Source: a virus. From it: 39,973 bases of DNA. Below, piece after piece: positions 21,701-35,168 of this stretch (within the stretch, counting starts at the first letter, position 1; each line of letters starts with the position of its first letter). The DNA is taken from positions 1-39,973 of IMG/VR virus record IMGVR_UViG_3300023179_000235. The stretch is one strand, 5' to 3'. The translations under genes and the position numbers were made by a program. The notes under the pieces were generated by a model. The model ran no database searches and was not told where the DNA came from. It saw only the letters and a program-made list of their open reading frames with translations.

Positions 21701-22146
21701 TTGCTTATGGTCTTGCAGATACTCCAGCACTTTTGCGCAGCGAGTTTGGTAGACTGTTCCCATTTTTGACTTACGGTAGAAATATTCTTACCCGTGGTGC
21801 AGAAGCTATATCTGAAGGTAGATATGGAAAGTTAGCTGAACTTGTATATAAACCTTTAATGATGCTTGCAGCGTTTGCTGGAACTACTAAAGCTATCACA
21901 GGCAAAGGGCGTACTTTACCGCCAGGATCTGAGCCGTTTGAAGCAGTTACGGATATAGCAAACTATGGCGTTGCAGCAGCGCCTCAAATTATTGGTAAAA
22001 ATATTTATAAGATTCTATCGCCAGTGCCGTTTACCGTTTGGGATGAAGCCAAATTTAAAAAAGAGTTGGAACGCAAACTTGAAGTGTTTCCTGAAATTGG
22101 TAAATCTAGTCCGTTATATAACACGCTGCTTAAGGAGTTTAAGTAA
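18715..22146 (+). CDS. Large internal virion / DNA-ejection protein
   Basis: At 1143 residues this is the largest protein in the window. Residues 1-42 (YEITSPTGERFEITAPDTATEAEVLEYAKAQF) form the short N-terminal module that often opens phage ejection proteins and large polyvalent proteins. A proline-rich linker follows, then a long coiled coil (about 225-470) and a helical C-terminal half with hydrophobic stretches near 1035-1070. I see no lytic transglycosylase catalytic motif, unlike T7 gp16. Its stop shares a base with the amidase start, so structural and lysis genes are probably co-transcribed. Confidence 0.75.
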   Translation: MAKYEITSPTGERFEITAPDTATEAEVLEYAKAQFAQPASTPQPPPQPEQIALPETLSTDIYGEVLTPPEQLNKAAFIQPTPTPLQQFGQEMMAPIQRGERILKSAAKGAISFPTAIAEVAPKFPGEAESEFTKGLKKIPGVEPLIEHKSEGWVENIAEFAGGFLAPEGALISGKVPTARALTGETLAKSQADEVFKMTVKREAKRAMGEFEPLDIWTPKLPTVENQTLGPVLKKELEDRVSKQALYEKNLKDAEDNISKQTGKLIEREMAAKERAATKIDRLSQESAKATANREDAILKAKNKLSTFDNTIEDPTVFNNKVSELEAQRVSSLQRIQELDQEIMALDQTADITKISRLEGQILAERNKITDIYSQINDINVSRGMSRDQRLIARQQLQAQTDEAIRSANLAEKQAQGRLSKEAVKINKDLQAERIRLLRQLQQKRAMRQDLNPIADKLRTNLLEQEQIKQAIKNTAIGVDQNIDWARTFGSTNTPEQVHLRALEQAKLVDDLVKSGFVKSEFADSLRQSVYSEVLKVNGIKMKTEKLSRFNFLTETFRWSKVQRRSGIPTGESVQKTIWALNQGKNLQNEYKALLQKPIALLKKSGIDLDEQTRILQYFEKLEDGRVIFNPSESTDATKLLVPAYQGPQLTAEQIQAFSQLRDIFDSLAYEAGVPRLKRYVPIRELPEYMGIAKGSAEAKLHPSVEYARTSGQLVQGVHETNIVTLSERYLREVANKKFIGPALEDAVETLNQLHLSRLVDESKAYSEWIYDVFNLNAVKNASEVLGTYKLNQIKPEVDAFIKALPETEGALKQIYDALTRAMYVKMVGINPSTWVKQFLQFPTMGSIELGERWTASGTRDALNLSLSGKERIANARKILRASLIQNGPLLESEFSKAPTNAIAKGIDFLNAPARKVARRTMEKGEEFNRLQSVLGAQNKFSYYWERGGEGGIQRLLEESALTTTQKQMVSRAYLSGGVENARDVYSLLITQRINFAYGLADTPALLRSEFGRLFPFLTYGRNILTRGAEAISEGRYGKLAELVYKPLMMLAAFAGTTKAITGKGRTLPPGSEPFEAVTDIANYGVAAAPQIIGKNIYKILSPVPFTVWDEAKFKKELERKLEVFPEIGKSSPLYNTLLKEFK

Positions 22147-23030
22147 TGGGTATTTTTTGGGACCCCCAGTTTGGGATATTTAATGATGGAGCAGATTTGC
22201 TTAAACCAAAAACGGTTCAAGAACAACAAATGTTGCCGCGAAAAAAAGGAGAATTAACCACAGTACCTTATGGGGATATTCAGGGTTATAATGAACGGTC
22301 AATGCAAAATGAAAAAGATTTTGCTGCTATTAAAGATAGATTAGTTATGGGCTTAACCCCTCAAAAAAATGAAGAGCAGTTTAAAAGCAGTCGAGAATTT
22401 AAAAATAAACCAGAAGCTTTTGTAGTTCATTGGACCGGCGATCAATTTCGATATTCTGGTGTTGATAAAAATACAGGAGAAAAAAACTGGATACTAGATG
22501 AAAATGGTAATAAGATTCCAAAGCCTATTAATCAATTAATAAATTCCATGGCAACTAGAAACAAAAAAGGTGAGATGGTTCCTGGTAAATCTGTTCATTA
22601 TGTAATGGATGCTAATGGTAATATAGTTCAAACGTTGTCCGAAAATTTACAGGCTGGGCATGTTCTTGGTGCAGCGGGAAATCCTAAAAAACCAAAGGAA
22701 TCCCCAGCCATTACTGAACCACAAAAACAGGATTCTTTTACACAATTTCCAACAAAAGTCTCAAGTAAAAATGCTTTGGGTATTGAAGTTGCTTTTGATC
22801 CAACTATAAAAGGTAATCAGTTATCTGAAACAATGACAAACAATCTTAGAGAATTTCTAATAACTACCATGCTTCAACATAATCTAAGCCCAAAAAATTT
22901 GTACGCTCATGGCGAAATACAGGCAGATCGTGGCGGTGGTAAAGGCGAAATGGTAGAATTTATGAAAGACTTTCGAAAAAATTTACCTAAGTATTTAGAT
23001 GAATACGCTGATAAGTATGGTTTAAAATGA
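22146..23030 (+). CDS. N-acetylmuramoyl-L-alanine amidase (endolysin)
   Basis: A 294-residue Amidase_2/PGRP-fold enzyme that cuts the amide bond between muramic acid and the peptide stem. Family signatures are VVHWTG (His95), HYVMDANGNIVQTL (His151 onwards) with AGHVLGAA (His172), NALGIEVAF near 211 and YAHGEIQADRGGGKGEM (His255). His95 and His255 are the expected zinc ligands. The third, usually Cys or Asp, is not obvious; Glu268 is a candidate. The first 85 residues are an extra, uncharacterised region with no signal peptide, so release depends on a holin. The two small membrane genes follow with overlaps. Confidence 0.9.
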   Translation: MGIFWDPQFGIFNDGADLLKPKTVQEQQMLPRKKGELTTVPYGDIQGYNERSMQNEKDFAAIKDRLVMGLTPQKNEEQFKSSREFKNKPEAFVVHWTGDQFRYSGVDKNTGEKNWILDENGNKIPKPINQLINSMATRNKKGEMVPGKSVHYVMDANGNIVQTLSENLQAGHVLGAAGNPKKPKESPAITEPQKQDSFTQFPTKVSSKNALGIEVAFDPTIKGNQLSETMTNNLREFLITTMLQHNLSPKNLYAHGEIQADRGGGKGEMVEFMKDFRKNLPKYLDEYADKYGLK

Positions 23031-23191
23031 ACTTTCAAGATATATTAGATATTGTCAGCGCCATGTTTACTATCATCGGCGCACTAAAAGTCATTGCAAG
23101 GTATACGCCTTGGAAATGGGACGATCTCATCCTAGACTTTTTGGATTTTCCTATGAGAGTTTTACGAAAGAAGGATAAAGATGAAAGCTGA
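23027..23191 (+). CDS. Small membrane protein, holin-like
   Basis: A 54-residue protein whose ATG overlaps the amidase stop (ATGA at 23027-23030) and whose 3' end overlaps the next gene by 11 bases. Residues 5-24 (DILDIVSAMFTIIGALKVIA) are a single hydrophobic segment, followed by a WKWDD turn and a charged, basic tail. Tight coupling to the amidase and the one-helix build suggest a small holin or holin accessory. I do not recognise a named family. Confidence 0.75.
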   Translation: MNFQDILDIVSAMFTIIGALKVIARYTPWKWDDLILDFLDFPMRVLRKKDKDES

Positions 23192-23402
23192 AGAATTGCT
23201 TCATAAAATAGATAAGCGGTTAGCCGTGCTTGAGGCTCTTAGCAAGGCCCATGCAATGGAAACTGACGAACAATTTAAAGAAATTAAAAGTGATCTCGTA
23301 TTAGTTAAAACAGAAGTGGGTAAACTAAAAATAAAAGTTGCGGGTGTTGCTGCTGTCGCTTCTCTTTTTGTAAGCTTCGCATTAAATAAGTGGGGTATAT
23401 AG
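23181..23402 (+). CDS. Coiled-coil / C-terminal membrane protein, XhlA-like
   Basis: A 73-residue protein. Residues 1-50 form an amphipathic coiled coil and 52-70 one membrane helix (VAGVAAVASLFVSFALNKW), the arrangement of the XhlA haemolysin family, which cooperates with holins. AAGGAT precedes the ATG inside the upstream gene. Its TAG stop shares its last base with the GTG start of the rhomboid gene (TAGTG at 23400-23404), so the rhomboid is probably translated from the same ribosomes. Confidence 0.8.
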   Translation: MKAEELLHKIDKRLAVLEALSKAHAMETDEQFKEIKSDLVLVKTEVGKLKIKVAGVAAVASLFVSFALNKWGI

Positions 23403-23998
23403 TGGCTACCCTTGGTTTGTTTTTAACTAGCGTACTTTCTCTTTTAATATTTGATCCCTTTACAACGGCTTACTTATATGATGAACCATCACTGCTTTGG
23501 CGCTTTGTAACGTTATTCACACACATTGTGAGCCACGGTAGTCTTGCTCATTTACTTGGTAATTTTATTTTTGGTCTGCCATATTTGTTTTATATGGAGT
23601 ATAGACTTAAAAGTCCGAAGAAATTTATTAGATTGTTTTTTGCGTTGGGTATTTATGCGTGGCTTTTTCAAATTGCGTTTGACCAATTTTCTGCTTATAA
23701 ATCGCTTGGCTTGATTGGTAGTAGTGGGGCAATCTTTGGGATAGTCGGCGCTGCCCTTATGTCTTACCGGGGTTTTAAGCCGATTCAATTGGCGGCCAAG
23801 GCGCTTCTTATATTTCATGTCGTTACACAAGCACAGGCTGCATTTACTAATGTTATGTTTCCAACGGGCATTGCGTCAGCAGCACATTTAGGTGGTTTGA
23901 TTGGCGGCATTTTGTTTAGTCATTATCGTCTGAATCGGGGTCCCAGTCGCTCTCGAAAACAACCTCGCGGTGTACGTCGTTTTCTTCCAAAGCTATAA
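23402..23998 (+). CDS. Rhomboid-family intramembrane serine protease
   Basis: A 198-residue membrane protein with about six hydrophobic segments, the GlpG core. Catalytic features are complete. WR at 33-34 starts loop L1, His41, His45, His50 and Asn54 follow with exactly the GlpG spacing, GSSG at 106-109 supplies Ser108, and AHLGGLIGG gives His162. Ser108 and His162 form the expected dyad that cuts helices within or next to the membrane. I chose GTG 23402, with GGGG about seven bases upstream and coupling to the previous stop; an in-frame GTG at 23390 lies inside that gene. The Arg-rich tail (about 176-195) is antisense to a minus-strand gene. It belongs to the lysis cassette, so a holin, spanin or host protein may be its substrate. 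Confidence 0.93.
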   Translation: MATLGLFLTSVLSLLIFDPFTTAYLYDEPSLLWRFVTLFTHIVSHGSLAHLLGNFIFGLPYLFYMEYRLKSPKKFIRLFFALGIYAWLFQIAFDQFSAYKSLGLIGSSGAIFGIVGAALMSYRGFKPIQLAAKALLIFHVVTQAQAAFTNVMFPTGIASAAHLGGLIGGILFSHYRLNRGPSRSRKQPRGVRRFLPKL

Positions 23999-32490: not shown

Positions 32491-33150
32491 TCATCTTTGT
32501 ATTCTACCATATAGCATTTTAGCTGTCAATACCACATCGGCACAATTCATTTTAGGATTATGCCTTCTTATTTGTAGAACAATCCCAGCCATGCGAGCAG
32601 CACTGGCAGAGGTTCCTACTGCATCTCCACGTACATACTCTAACCATGAGTCTGCGTCGTTAGAAAACGGCGCTCTTACTCCATTAAACAAAGTACCCAC
32701 ACTTAGTATACAATTGTTTTTATAATTTGCAGGGTAGAATAATCTACCACCCCCAGCATTTCCAGCCGCAGCAACCATAATAACATCACGATTAGCAAAC
32801 TCTTCTAGTATTGCTTTCTCTTCTTCTAGTACTATGATACCACCATAGCTTAATGATAATACTTTTACAGACCTAGTAAGAGATTCGTGTAAGGCAGCCA
32901 GTAAAGGCACCTTAAATTGTGGACCAGGTTGCCAAGTAATTTGCTCCGCATCTACAGGCTTTGAATTAAGTAGGTCTAGCTGATTCTTAAGGCTACGTGC
33001 CATGTCCGTGCCGTGGTTTGACGGATGCACATAAGAATTTTTGCGCATATTAAGCCTTCCAGTATAAGACACTGAATTACCTACATCAACCTGTATAATG
33101 TCTACTGCTAAAGCACAGATTGCTACGTGAAAAATAAAAAGTAGTTTCAT
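32491..33150 (-). CDS. Exported subtilisin-like serine protease (S8 family)
   Basis: A 219-residue protein with an N-terminal signal-like segment (KLLFIFHVAICALA). The catalytic triad is complete: Asp22 in VDVGNS, His46 in NHGTDMA and Ser181 in GTSASAARMAG. The oxyanion Asn131 is in AAAGNAGG, and the core motifs LSLSYGG, YPANY and PFSND are present. Arg186 replaces the usual Pro after the Ser. It is shorter than most subtilases and has no room for an inhibitory propeptide between the signal and Asp22. It should act in the periplasm, on host envelope proteins or receptors. Its start overlaps a 21-residue membrane peptide gene. Confidence 0.92.
   Translation of the reverse strand: MKLLFIFHVAICALAVDIIQVDVGNSVSYTGRLNMRKNSYVHPSNHGTDMARSLKNQLDLLNSKPVDAEQITWQPGPQFKVPLLAALHESLTRSVKVLSLSYGGIIVLEEEKAILEEFANRDVIMVAAAGNAGGGRLFYPANYKNNCILSVGTLFNGVRAPFSNDADSWLEYVRGDAVGTSASAARMAGIVLQIRRHNPKMNCADVVLTAKMLYGRIQR
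32501..32529 (-). promoter_or_regulatory. Possible antisense promoter in the end of the subtilase gene
   Basis: On the minus strand TTGACA (32529-32524), a 17-bp spacer and TAGAAT (32506-32501) lie in the last codons of the protease gene. Transcription would run antisense through the rightward early genes. The same 17-bp spacing as the other promoters makes it worth noting, but the -10 box has one mismatch and the boxes are also codons. Confidence 0.35.
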
Positions 33151-33212
33151 TCGACACTCCCTACAAGGTTATAAACAACTAAAAGAATAATTACAAAGAC
33201 TAGGGTAATCAT
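33147..33212 (-). CDS. 21-residue membrane micropeptide upstream of the protease
   Basis: A short frame coding for 21 residues, almost all hydrophobic (MITLVFVIILLVVYNLVGSV), one membrane helix with no charge until its last Glu. GGGAG lies five bases before ATG 33212. The start shares a base with the preceding stop (TAATG) and its own stop overlaps the protease ATG (ATGA). These features support real translation coupled to the protease. Possible roles are protease anchor or regulator, small holin or antiholin. Confidence 0.6.
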   Translation of the reverse strand: MITLVFVIILLVVYNLVGSVE

Positions 33213-33499
33213 TAAAACTCCCATCTAAAAGAGAGCACGGTGCGGTCCGAACGTAGAAACACATTGAACCGCCCATGCGTCACATTTATTTGTCTCTCAT
33301 ACGCCACCTTACTAATAACAAATAGGGTATCAGTGTACTTGTTTCGCACATGTGGTTCGACCTGCATTTTAATGCGGTCAACCCGCCTGTTAAGCTCTGC
33401 ATTATACTCTACAGTAGCTTGCTGCAATGTAATGCGACAAGCATTTACCTGAGTTTGCAGTGTGATACCACATATTGTAGCTATTATTTGGTGAAGCAT
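33212..33499 (-). CDS. Possible small exported protein
   Basis: A 95-residue protein. Residues 1-19 are moderately hydrophobic (MLHQIIATICGITLQTQVNA) and end in VNAC, which resembles but does not match a strict lipobox. The rest is basic and strand-rich. The ribosome binding site is weak (AAAGA), with coupling to the previous gene through a 16-base overlap. It is the first of three overlapping genes that end with the protease, so it may work with it. No family recognised. Confidence 0.6.
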   Translation of the reverse strand: MLHQIIATICGITLQTQVNACRITLQQATVEYNAELNRRVDRIKMQVEPHVRNKYTDTLFVISKVAYERQINVTHGRFNVFLRSDRTVLSFRWEF

Positions 33500-33687
33500 T
33501 CTTTATATATTTTCTTAAGTGTATCCCGCTTGATACCGAGATAAGAATCCTGCCGTTTATTATGTATAACAATGCGAGACTTGTTTTCCGTAAAGTAAAC
33601 GTCAACACTTTTATTAATGGTAACTTTCTTAAGGTTACTTCGGGTCTGGTTCCTTGGTGCAAACGCTTCGTACATTCCGTCACTCAT
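33484..33687 (-). CDS. Small basic hypothetical protein
   Basis: A 67-residue basic protein with AAGGAGG seven bases before ATG 33687. Residues about 20-50 look like short strands (KVTINKSVDVYFTENKSRIV) and the end is a Lys-rich helix. It overlaps the upstream gene by eight bases and the downstream gene by 16. A second frame across the same bases (33402-33683) has no ribosome binding site and is rejected. Confidence 0.7.
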   Translation of the reverse strand: MSDGMYEAFAPRNQTRSNLKKVTINKSVDVYFTENKSRIVIHNKRQDSYLGIKRDTLKKIYKECFTK

Positions 33688-33931
33688 CTGAATCCTCCTT
33701 CTTTTCTAATCTTGTATGTAAATCCATTGACTTAGTTAATCTTACGGGTAATTTTAAAAACATGCTCCTAATAACTATTGAGCAGGCCCTCCCTTCTTCA
33801 TCTTCAAAACCAAAACCGATAGCGCCAACAGGCTCGTCAGAATACTGTATGTCACAAGATTCTGTATCAGGTATGTTTTCTTTATCTCCGTAAGCTACTA
33901 GCATTCTTAAGTCTCCCCATGATATTTTCAT
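33680..33931 (-). CDS. Hypothetical protein
   Basis: An 83-residue acidic protein with GGAGG before the ATG at 33931. It contains EPVGAIGFGFEDEEGRACSI, a compact strand-turn region. The gene lies two bases after the FmdB-like gene and overlaps the next gene by eight bases, so it is part of the same operon. No family recognised. Confidence 0.7.
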   Translation of the reverse strand: MKISWGDLRMLVAYGDKENIPDTESCDIQYSDEPVGAIGFGFEDEEGRACSIVIRSMFLKLPVRLTKSMDLHTRLEKKEDSDE

Positions 33932-33933
33932 TA

Positions 33934-34122
33934 TTAGTATCCTCCTTTTTTATACCAGCCCTGCCCTTTAAGCACAAATCCTCCAGCATTTAGCGAGAAA
34001 ACCTTTTCAGTTTTCTCAGACTTGCACTTAGGACACGGCGGCGTTGGTGTTACAGATTCTTTAATAGAACGCTCGTATTCAAACGTCGTACTACATTCTG
34101 TGCATTTAGCGTCGTATTTCAT
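33934..34122 (-). CDS. FmdB-type zinc-ribbon protein
   Basis: A 62-residue protein with Cys7, Cys10, Cys30 and Cys33 (KCTECSTTFEYERSIKE, then CPKCKSEKTEKVFS), the layout of FmdB-family putative regulatory zinc ribbons. The ending GGFVLKGQGWYKKGGY is also typical of that family. ATG 34122 overlaps the upstream stop (ATGA) with AAGGA upstream. These small proteins are common in phages and bacteria. Their role is not established; nucleic-acid or protein binding is likely. Confidence 0.85.
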   Translation of the reverse strand: MKYDAKCTECSTTFEYERSIKESVTPTPPCPKCKSEKTEKVFSLNAGGFVLKGQGWYKKGGY

Positions 34123-34433
34123 TTTGTAAATCCTTGAAAAACAAAGGCTCCAGTTACTCCTACAAGTACGTAAAAATACCACGGCAATCCTTTAGATGAA
34201 TCAGTCTCACGAAGTTTCTCATCTTGACGCTTAATAACATCTTTGAGAATCTTACTTTCTTTTTCTAAAGTCTCCGTGTATTCTACACAAGCGGTTAACA
34301 CTTCGTCGCACTTTGGCTTAGGCGTCTCCGCTTGGACCGTCGCCGCGGTAGTGCTCAAGTAAAGAGCGCATACGGTCACGAGCACGGTCACGTTCTTGCT
34401 GTATCGCTTTGAGTTTATCGGATAAGGCTTCAT
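34119..34433 (-). CDS. Membrane protein overlapping the spanin-like gene
   Basis: A 104-residue protein with a hydrophobic signal-like segment (about 15-33, ending near VQA-E), a periplasmic coiled coil with two Cys (CDEVLTAC) and a C-terminal membrane helix (about 83-100). It begins inside the upstream gene in another frame, using GGAG about eight bases upstream, and overlaps it by 116 bases. This is the layout of Rz/Rz1 spanin pairs. It lacks a proper lipobox and has a C-terminal helix, so it is not a classical Rz1; a unimolecular or variant spanin, or an unrelated membrane protein, is possible. Confidence 0.65.
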   Translation of the reverse strand: MKPYPINSKRYSKNVTVLVTVCALYLSTTAATVQAETPKPKCDEVLTACVEYTETLEKESKILKDVIKRQDEKLRETDSSKGLPWYFYVLVGVTGAFVFQGFTK

Positions 34434-34539
34434 CTTCTTTCTCCTTTAACTTTATTTTAAGTTCTTTGTTATTGCGAGATATTATGTAATTATAGACTAA
34501 AAGTATTACTCCAATAATAGACAATGCCATATCTTTCAT
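34318..34539 (-). CDS. i-spanin (Rz)-like protein
   Basis: A 73-residue protein with one N-terminal membrane helix (about 4-20, MALSIIGVILLVYNYII) and a charged coiled coil (about 22-62) that should lie in the periplasm. This is the architecture of an inner-membrane spanin subunit. CGGAGT precedes ATG 34539, which overlaps the upstream stop (ATGA). The second half of the gene contains the start of the next gene in another frame. Spanins fuse inner and outer membranes at the last step of lysis in Gram-negative hosts. The amidase is 11 kb away, which is unusual. Confidence 0.65.
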   Translation of the reverse strand: MKDMALSIIGVILLVYNYIISRNNKELKIKLKEKEDEALSDKLKAIQQERDRARDRMRSLLEHYRGDGPSGDA

Positions 34540-34844
34540 ATGTACTCCGTTTTTGGTTTGCCGCATGCTGGACACGGCGTGTTGATATTATCATTAGTTA
34601 ACTCACGGTTGTCACTAAACCCGCAGGACACACAATGCCAAGTGTTGGCCGCGTGTAACTCTGCCTCTGCGTCAGTTTCAAAGATGAGGGGGCAACCTTC
34701 TATTGAACACCTAGTCATCTCGTTTTGCACATAGTCAAAACAAACTTTGTGTAAACATTCAAAGTTACGGGCTTCGATGTAGGAACCTGGAGCTAGGTCC
34801 AGCCTATACCGTGTTTCCCCATTTTGTGCAATAAACTGTTTCAT
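34536..34844 (-). CDS. Zinc-ribbon protein
   Basis: A 102-residue Cys-rich protein. Cys30, Cys35, Cys46 and Cys51 form one group and Cys71, Cys74, Cys91 and Cys94 (CVSCG and CPACGKPK) form a rubredoxin-like zinc ribbon. AGGAG lies nine bases before ATG 34844, but a promoter -10 box begins only three bases before that ATG, so this gene needs read-through from upstream. No family recognised beyond zinc binding. Confidence 0.72.
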   Translation of the reverse strand: MKQFIAQNGETRYRLDLAPGSYIEARNFECLHKVCFDYVQNEMTRCSIEGCPLIFETDAEAELHAANTWHCVSCGFSDNRELTNDNINTPCPACGKPKTEYI

Positions 34845-34847
34845 AAA

Positions 34848-34876
34848 ATTATACTCCTTTTTGTGTTAAAAGTCAA
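34848..34876 (-). promoter_or_regulatory. Sigma70-type promoter ahead of the zinc-ribbon and spanin genes
   Basis: On the minus strand TTGACT (34876-34871), a 17-bp spacer and TATAAT (34853-34848). The -35 box overlaps the last codons of the upstream gene and the spacer holds the ribosome binding site of the next. The start would fall at or inside the ATG of the zinc-ribbon gene, so it would chiefly serve the spanin-like genes and the protease genes downstream. Confidence 0.6.
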
Positions 34877-35168
34877 AGACAAAAACTGTGCCAATAGCAG
34901 CAGCTTGCCCAGCCACATTAGCTAGGATGTCTCCACCATCTAGTCTTCTTGTTTTCCCTGCGTCAAACATCTCTTTGGTAAACCATACCATTGAGGTTAC
35001 TGCCGCAGAAAATACTAAGGCATCCGTTCTTTCCATGCGAAAGGCATGAGAAGAAATCCCGTAACTCACCGTTTGAATTGCATATACTGCCGCAAAGTGG
35101 TTGACTTTGTCGGGCTCTATAGCGTACGAGGTAGAGCAAAGTAGTGTTGCTAATATTAGGACGCGCAT
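34866..35168 (-). CDS. Exported YfiM/DUF2279-like membrane protein
   Basis: A 100-residue protein with a cleavable-looking signal (RVLILATLLCSTSYA). DKVNHFAAVYAIQ, WFTKEMFDAG and GGDILANVAGQAAAIG follow at the spacing of YfiM-like (DUF2279) proteins, with two hydrophobic segments. Family members are periplasmic or membrane proteins of unknown role; the conserved His, Lys-Glu and Asp suggest a membrane-embedded site. It overlaps the upstream gene by 13 bases. It adds to the cluster of exported proteins around the protease. Confidence 0.72.
   Translation of the reverse strand: MRVLILATLLCSTSYAIEPDKVNHFAAVYAIQTVSYGISSHAFRMERTDALVFSAAVTSMVWFTKEMFDAGKTRRLDGGDILANVAGQAAAIGTVFVFDF

Follow-up and report, generated by a model that had tools for sequence, protein, structure and literature searches.

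The 219-aa protein encoded by the last gene of a leftward row in the phage DNA of IMG/VR record IMGVR_UViG_3300023179_000235 (positions 1-39,973; this whole stretch of 39,973 nucleotides is the window referred to below) is best explained as a minimal exported subtilase of family S8 that folds without a propeptide. As a whole, this reading was given a somewhat better than even chance. The protein is called phage S8 here, and the features discussed are collected in Table 1.

The open reading frame is a real gene: it starts with ATG, with a Shine-Dalgarno-like GGAG sequence immediately upstream, its product matches the S8 profile, and a syntenic ortholog with 51% identity, aligned from residue 1 to nearly the last residue, was found in record IMGVR_UViG_3300047463_000289 (L024). 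Since comparison with this ortholog gave a pS of 0.75 (synonymous, near saturation) and a pN of 0.34 (replacement), the gene is under purifying selection. A chance open reading frame was considered and rejected, and so were a fragment split off a larger protease by a frameshift, the L024 ortholog having identical start and length, and a virion protease, the gene lying outside the structural block.

In the Pfam profile search the protein matched PF00082 (Peptidase_S8) with an E value of 3.7e-8 and 33.5 bits, above the cut-off of 21.8, and its sequence matches in the PDB were thermitase and subtilisins (E ~6e-5). The S8 triad of Asp22, His46 and Ser181 and the oxyanion Asn131 were exactly as claimed in the original prediction, in the Asp-His-Ser order of the family by alignment and by model placement, and all four residues are invariant in the L024 ortholog. 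The protein is an S8 subtilase core, very probably with an active S8 fold.

Table 1. Coordinates of the S8 gene and of other features of the window.
Feature	Positions	Strand	Evidence
Minimal S8 subtilase gene, 219 aa	32491..33150	minus	PF00082, AlphaFold2 model, ortholog L024:1501-2154
S8 signal-type segment, residues 1-15 (MKLLFIFHVAICALA), predicted cut after Ala15	33106..33150	minus	sequence features kept in ortholog
S8 codon Asp22	33087-33085	minus	
S8 codon His46	33015-33013	minus	
S8 codon Asn131	32760-32758	minus	
S8 codon Ser181	32610-32608	minus	
Mini-ORF, 21 aa, one transmembrane segment (MITLVFVIILLVVYNLVGSVE)	33147..33212	minus	translation; counterparts in relatives
95-aa protein, signal-like N-terminus then conserved Cys	33212..33499	minus	homologs in L024, L027, L045
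104-aa protein, signal/TM segment, coiled coil, C-terminal TM	34119..34433	minus	conserved in five phages
85-aa protein, N-terminal TM and coiled coil, inner-membrane spanin-like	34318..34575	minus	conserved in four phages
100-aa exported DUF2279/YfiM-like protein	34866..35168	minus	PF10043 E 4.9e-4, below cut-off; syntenic in relatives
Amidase endolysin	22146-23030		
Holin-like 73-aa membrane protein	23181-23402		
Rhomboid-family intramembrane protease gene	23390-23998	plus	

Small genes with signal-like or transmembrane segments cluster in the row that the S8 gene closes, which includes a spanin-like pair, the YfiM-like protein, the 95-aa protein and the miniprotein. By their architecture, the 104-aa and 85-aa genes, which overlap in different frames and have no family match, would form the spanin-like pair; this pair (34119-34575, minus strand) is without a lipobox. 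Because the S8 gene is the last of these apparently envelope-directed genes, the spanin-like pair among them, remodelling of the envelope or lysis is favoured as its role, with a likelihood judged just short of even, and is ranked above superinfection exclusion; what probability remains is divided among a partner-dependent enzyme, other envelope targets and an inactive binder. Exclusion, one of the roles named in the original prediction, would mean that phage S8, once exported, removes a receptor from the cell surface and so keeps related phages out of the infected cell. An envelope or lysis role is at least as likely, both being guesses, and exclusion itself is considered rather unlikely: an accessory distribution (S8 is present in two of the four phages holding the flanking region) suits a host-facing gene, and the 51% identity of phage S8 indicates faster divergence than in the 95-aa protein (78%) and the spanin-like genes (84-86%), but two other neighbours in the row, p67 (33484-33687; 42%) and p83 (33680-33931; 51%), diverge as much.

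Elsewhere in the window, the rhomboid gene lies directly after the holin-like gene, and the amidase endolysin precedes both. The GSSGA serine and the AHxxG histidine of the rhomboid are preserved in its relatives from six related phages, and tblastn against annotated phage records gave no match. As a core phage gene linked to lysis, the rhomboid could be a less usual enzyme than phage S8.

Phage S8 begins with a charged residue, K2 (R2 in the ortholog), followed by a hydrophobic run at residues 3-15 and a small-x-small motif, A13-L-A15, which is A-L-G in the ortholog. The signal-like segment reported ahead of the catalytic domain is thus present and kept in the ortholog; residues 1-15 would constitute a short Sec signal peptide, and from these features phage S8 is very likely exported. 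Between the predicted cut and Asp22 lie six residues (16-21), Asp22 being the seventh of the mature enzyme, in accordance with the earlier count of about seven. Removal of residues 1-15 leaves 204 residues, beginning right at the first core strand. It is unlikely that the 15-residue segment stays uncleaved, either as an inner-membrane anchor facing the periplasm or as part of a cytoplasmic enzyme like QhpE or the intracellular subtilisins. Fifteen residues are indeed short for a signal and the nearest NCBIfam profile is that of QhpE, a cytoplasmic single-turnover protease, but the small-x-small site is conserved (ALA/ALG), the fold begins immediately after residue 15, and another short signal-like N-terminus (16 aa), that of the YfiM-like protein, is found in the same row.

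Most exported subtilisins need a propeptide for folding. In phage S8 the reading frame stays open for no more than six codons ahead of the ATG (open frame of 225), so that no propeptide is hidden there, and the I9-type propeptide that stands between signal and catalytic domain in classical prosubtilisins is absent. A profile search for Inhibitor_I9 (PF05922) gave no match in this phage record or in three related ones. Together with the six residues before Asp22, these results bear out the claim that a propeptide in cis is missing. Folding alone, a partner acting as chaperone and activation by another route had been offered as ways around this lack; the first fits best, and the 95-aa neighbour proposed as partner is unlikely to be one.

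The stop of the mini-ORF overlaps the S8 start (ATGA), and that of the 95-aa gene overlaps the mini-ORF start (TAATG), which suggests translational coupling of the three. Counterparts of the mini-ORF occupy the same place in L024 (21 aa) and, with 18 aa each, in L027 (IMGVR_UViG_3300023179_000291) and L045 (IMGVR_UViG_3300035670_001072), the last two records being possibly incomplete. Coupling of the 95-aa protein, which ends in aromatic residues, with a single-TM miniprotein of 18-21 aa was observed in all four related phages examined. To its L027 and L045 homologs the 95-aa protein is 33-36% identical. No S8 was detectable in these two, possibly incomplete, records, where a different gene follows the pair; the protease has therefore been gained or lost at the end of the pair. 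As the 95-aa protein also occurs where the protease is not detectable, it is unlikely to be a trans-propeptide dedicated to phage S8. It had been named as a place to look for an Inhibitor_I9-like domain; in the profile search it showed no similarity to I9, and no relatives were found among Pfam and PDB sequences. It is distinctly unlikely that any partner (the 95-aa protein, the 21-aa miniprotein or another small gene) serves in trans as chaperone and inhibitor. The tight coupling by overlapping stops and starts would suit such a partner, as would the exported-like character of the 95-aa protein and its conservation in the other S8-bearing phage, L024, but the pair is kept, with another gene next to it, where S8 is not detectable, and similarity to I9 or any other prodomain was not seen.

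A first AlphaFold2 model, built on two sequences, came out poor (pLDDT 53), and Foldseek still gave subtilisins at probability 1.00. For the second model 44 viral S8 sequences fetched by the GTSMAxPHVAG DNA pattern were added, and the homolog rows were trimmed at the His motif, so that the N-terminus of the model was not forced. This model had a pLDDT of 79 and a pTM of 0.80, with poor stretches (pLDDT < 50) at residues 25-43 and 1-14. In agreement with the earlier assignment, it contained a subtilase core, with Z ~21 and an rmsd of 2.3-2.9 over 185-192 residues against subtilisins (Z 21 to BPN' over ~190 residues), and VIA-align placed residues 14/15-219 on residues 24/25-258 of subtilisin BPN' at 20-23% identity. 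In the model Asp22 is the last residue of strand 18-22, and the helix that follows the catalytic His runs unbroken through residues 45-60.

Sequence alignment of the N-terminus depended on the mode used: MAFFT in its default automatic mode put Ala13, not Asp22, in the catalytic Asp column of other S8 proteins, whereas FFT-NS-2 aligned Asp22 with it. Because the starts of the structurally aligned ranges share a common offset, Asp22 falls on Asp32 of BPN' if the first stretch is ungapped, a match that comes through the alignment ranges. As far as prediction can settle it, the model would thus make Asp22 the Asp32 equivalent and remove the ambiguity between the modes. The motif around the catalytic Ser is GTSASAAR in phage S8 and GTSASTAR in the ortholog; compared with the usual GTSMAxPH, GTS is kept and the Pro and His after the Ser are absent. 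GTSMAxPH is common in family S8 and is not obligatory. A pseudoprotease that binds its target without cutting, to which the non-canonical motif and the alignment mode that keeps Asp22 off its column could point, is very improbable, since the catalytic residues are all kept at 51% identity with synonymous sites near saturation and Asp22 closes the first strand in the model.

Compared with BPN', phage S8 is without the first 24 mature residues, starting at about BPN' residue 25, without a clear calcium-A loop (the high-affinity site) and without ~20 residues directly before the Ser, and its C-terminus falls at about BPN' residue 258. Proteinase-K-type enzymes are without the calcium-A loop and yet have a propeptide, so the loss of this loop is insufficient to free a subtilase from its propeptide. 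Folding of BPN' depends on a 77-residue prosegment; once the calcium-A loop is deleted, the interrupted helix becomes continuous and refolding is much easier (PMC4865297). The propeptides of hyperthermophiles are not essential for folding (PMC10580911). In phage S8 the loop and the N-terminal segment are both lost, which suggests unaided folding, and the enzyme probably folds in this way after export.

In the proposed mechanism, the short signal segment would carry the unfolded chain through Sec, and cleavage after Ala15 would yield the 204-residue enzyme with the catalytic Asp close to its new N-terminus. As phage S8 is without the N-terminal 24 residues and the calcium-A loop, which in classical subtilisin are linked with slow folding that requires the propeptide, unaided folding in an assumed periplasm is plausible. 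Being unfolded until export, phage S8 would be inactive in the cytoplasm; its most likely task would then be to cleave one envelope protein of host or phage, or a few, while the cell is taken over or lysed. More tentatively, and as a possibility with the odds against it, phage S8 could be a natural exported subtilase of ~204 residues in which the propeptide-dependent parts were lost together, folding is fast and unaided, and signal cleavage is the sole activation. It is put forward just as tentatively that this ~204-residue enzyme might be a natural counterpart of the engineered prodomain-independent subtilisins, used on the host envelope.

The need of subtilisin for its propeptide is a classic folding question that has mostly been addressed through engineering. 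An exported enzyme from nature without propeptide, N-terminal segment and calcium-A loop would make the question testable in a small protein; the minimal S8 core could also serve as a compact protease for biotechnology, and it points to a little-studied side of phage biology, the proteases sent to the host envelope. No close S8 relative was found in 50,697 annotated phage records, and the search of plasmids gave one weak Paenibacillus S8 and no close relative. Scans with short exact patterns, which distant relatives may escape, returned only the L024 ortholog from IMG/VR and no close bacterial source from GTDB genomes. A search of the literature on phage S8 proteases gave nothing directly relevant.

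Phage S8 shares with BPN' and Savinase (S8A) the fold (Z ~21), the triad order, the oxyanion Asn and a signal-type N-terminus. Unlike phage S8, these enzymes have the 77-residue propeptide, the first 24 mature residues and the calcium-A loop; the lack of ~20 pre-Ser residues, the end at about BPN' 258 and GTSASAAR in place of GTSMAxPH also set phage S8 apart from them. The engineered, calcium-site-deleted BPN' variants 1sub, 1suc, 1sud and 1gns, which refold more easily, were among the best structural matches, level with ordinary subtilisins, and resemble phage S8 in the continuous post-His helix and the missing calcium-A loop, but most of their N-terminal segment is retained and they bear stabilising mutations.

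QhpE, which acts in quinohemoprotein amine dehydrogenase biogenesis, is likewise a small S8 protein; its NCBIfam profile (NF049966, length 219) matched residues 43-207 of phage S8 with an E value of 5e-8 and 32.5 bits, below the equivalog cut-off of 165. In contrast to phage S8, QhpE is a cytoplasmic, single-turnover subtilisin-like protease (PMC7876137), and no qhp genes were recognised in the phage record.

A similar architecture is seen in two exported viral subtilases from IMG/VR, L178 and L188, a close pair that are not close relatives of phage S8. In both, the signal peptide leads straight into the catalytic domain with no room for I9, and the Asp-His spacing is short (21, against 24 in phage S8); unlike phage S8, both have the canonical GTSMA[ST]PH, and their Asp is preceded by the usual stretch of ~30 mature residues. 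The Asp was at a median position of 138 in a set of 63 viral S8 ORFs whose 5' ends are complete, a sample biased by its selection for the canonical Ser motif. It lay within the first 56 residues in eight, six of them without an obvious signal peptide (intracellular type) and the other two being L178 and L188, and phage S8, with its Asp at 22, had the shortest N-terminus in the comparison. On this point the original prediction went too far: among viruses phage S8 is not the only exported subtilase without a propeptide, L178 and L188 being alike in this, and intracellular-type phage subtilases are also without the domain. Since exported propeptide-less viral subtilases exist elsewhere, phage S8 is a known type of enzyme in an extreme form.
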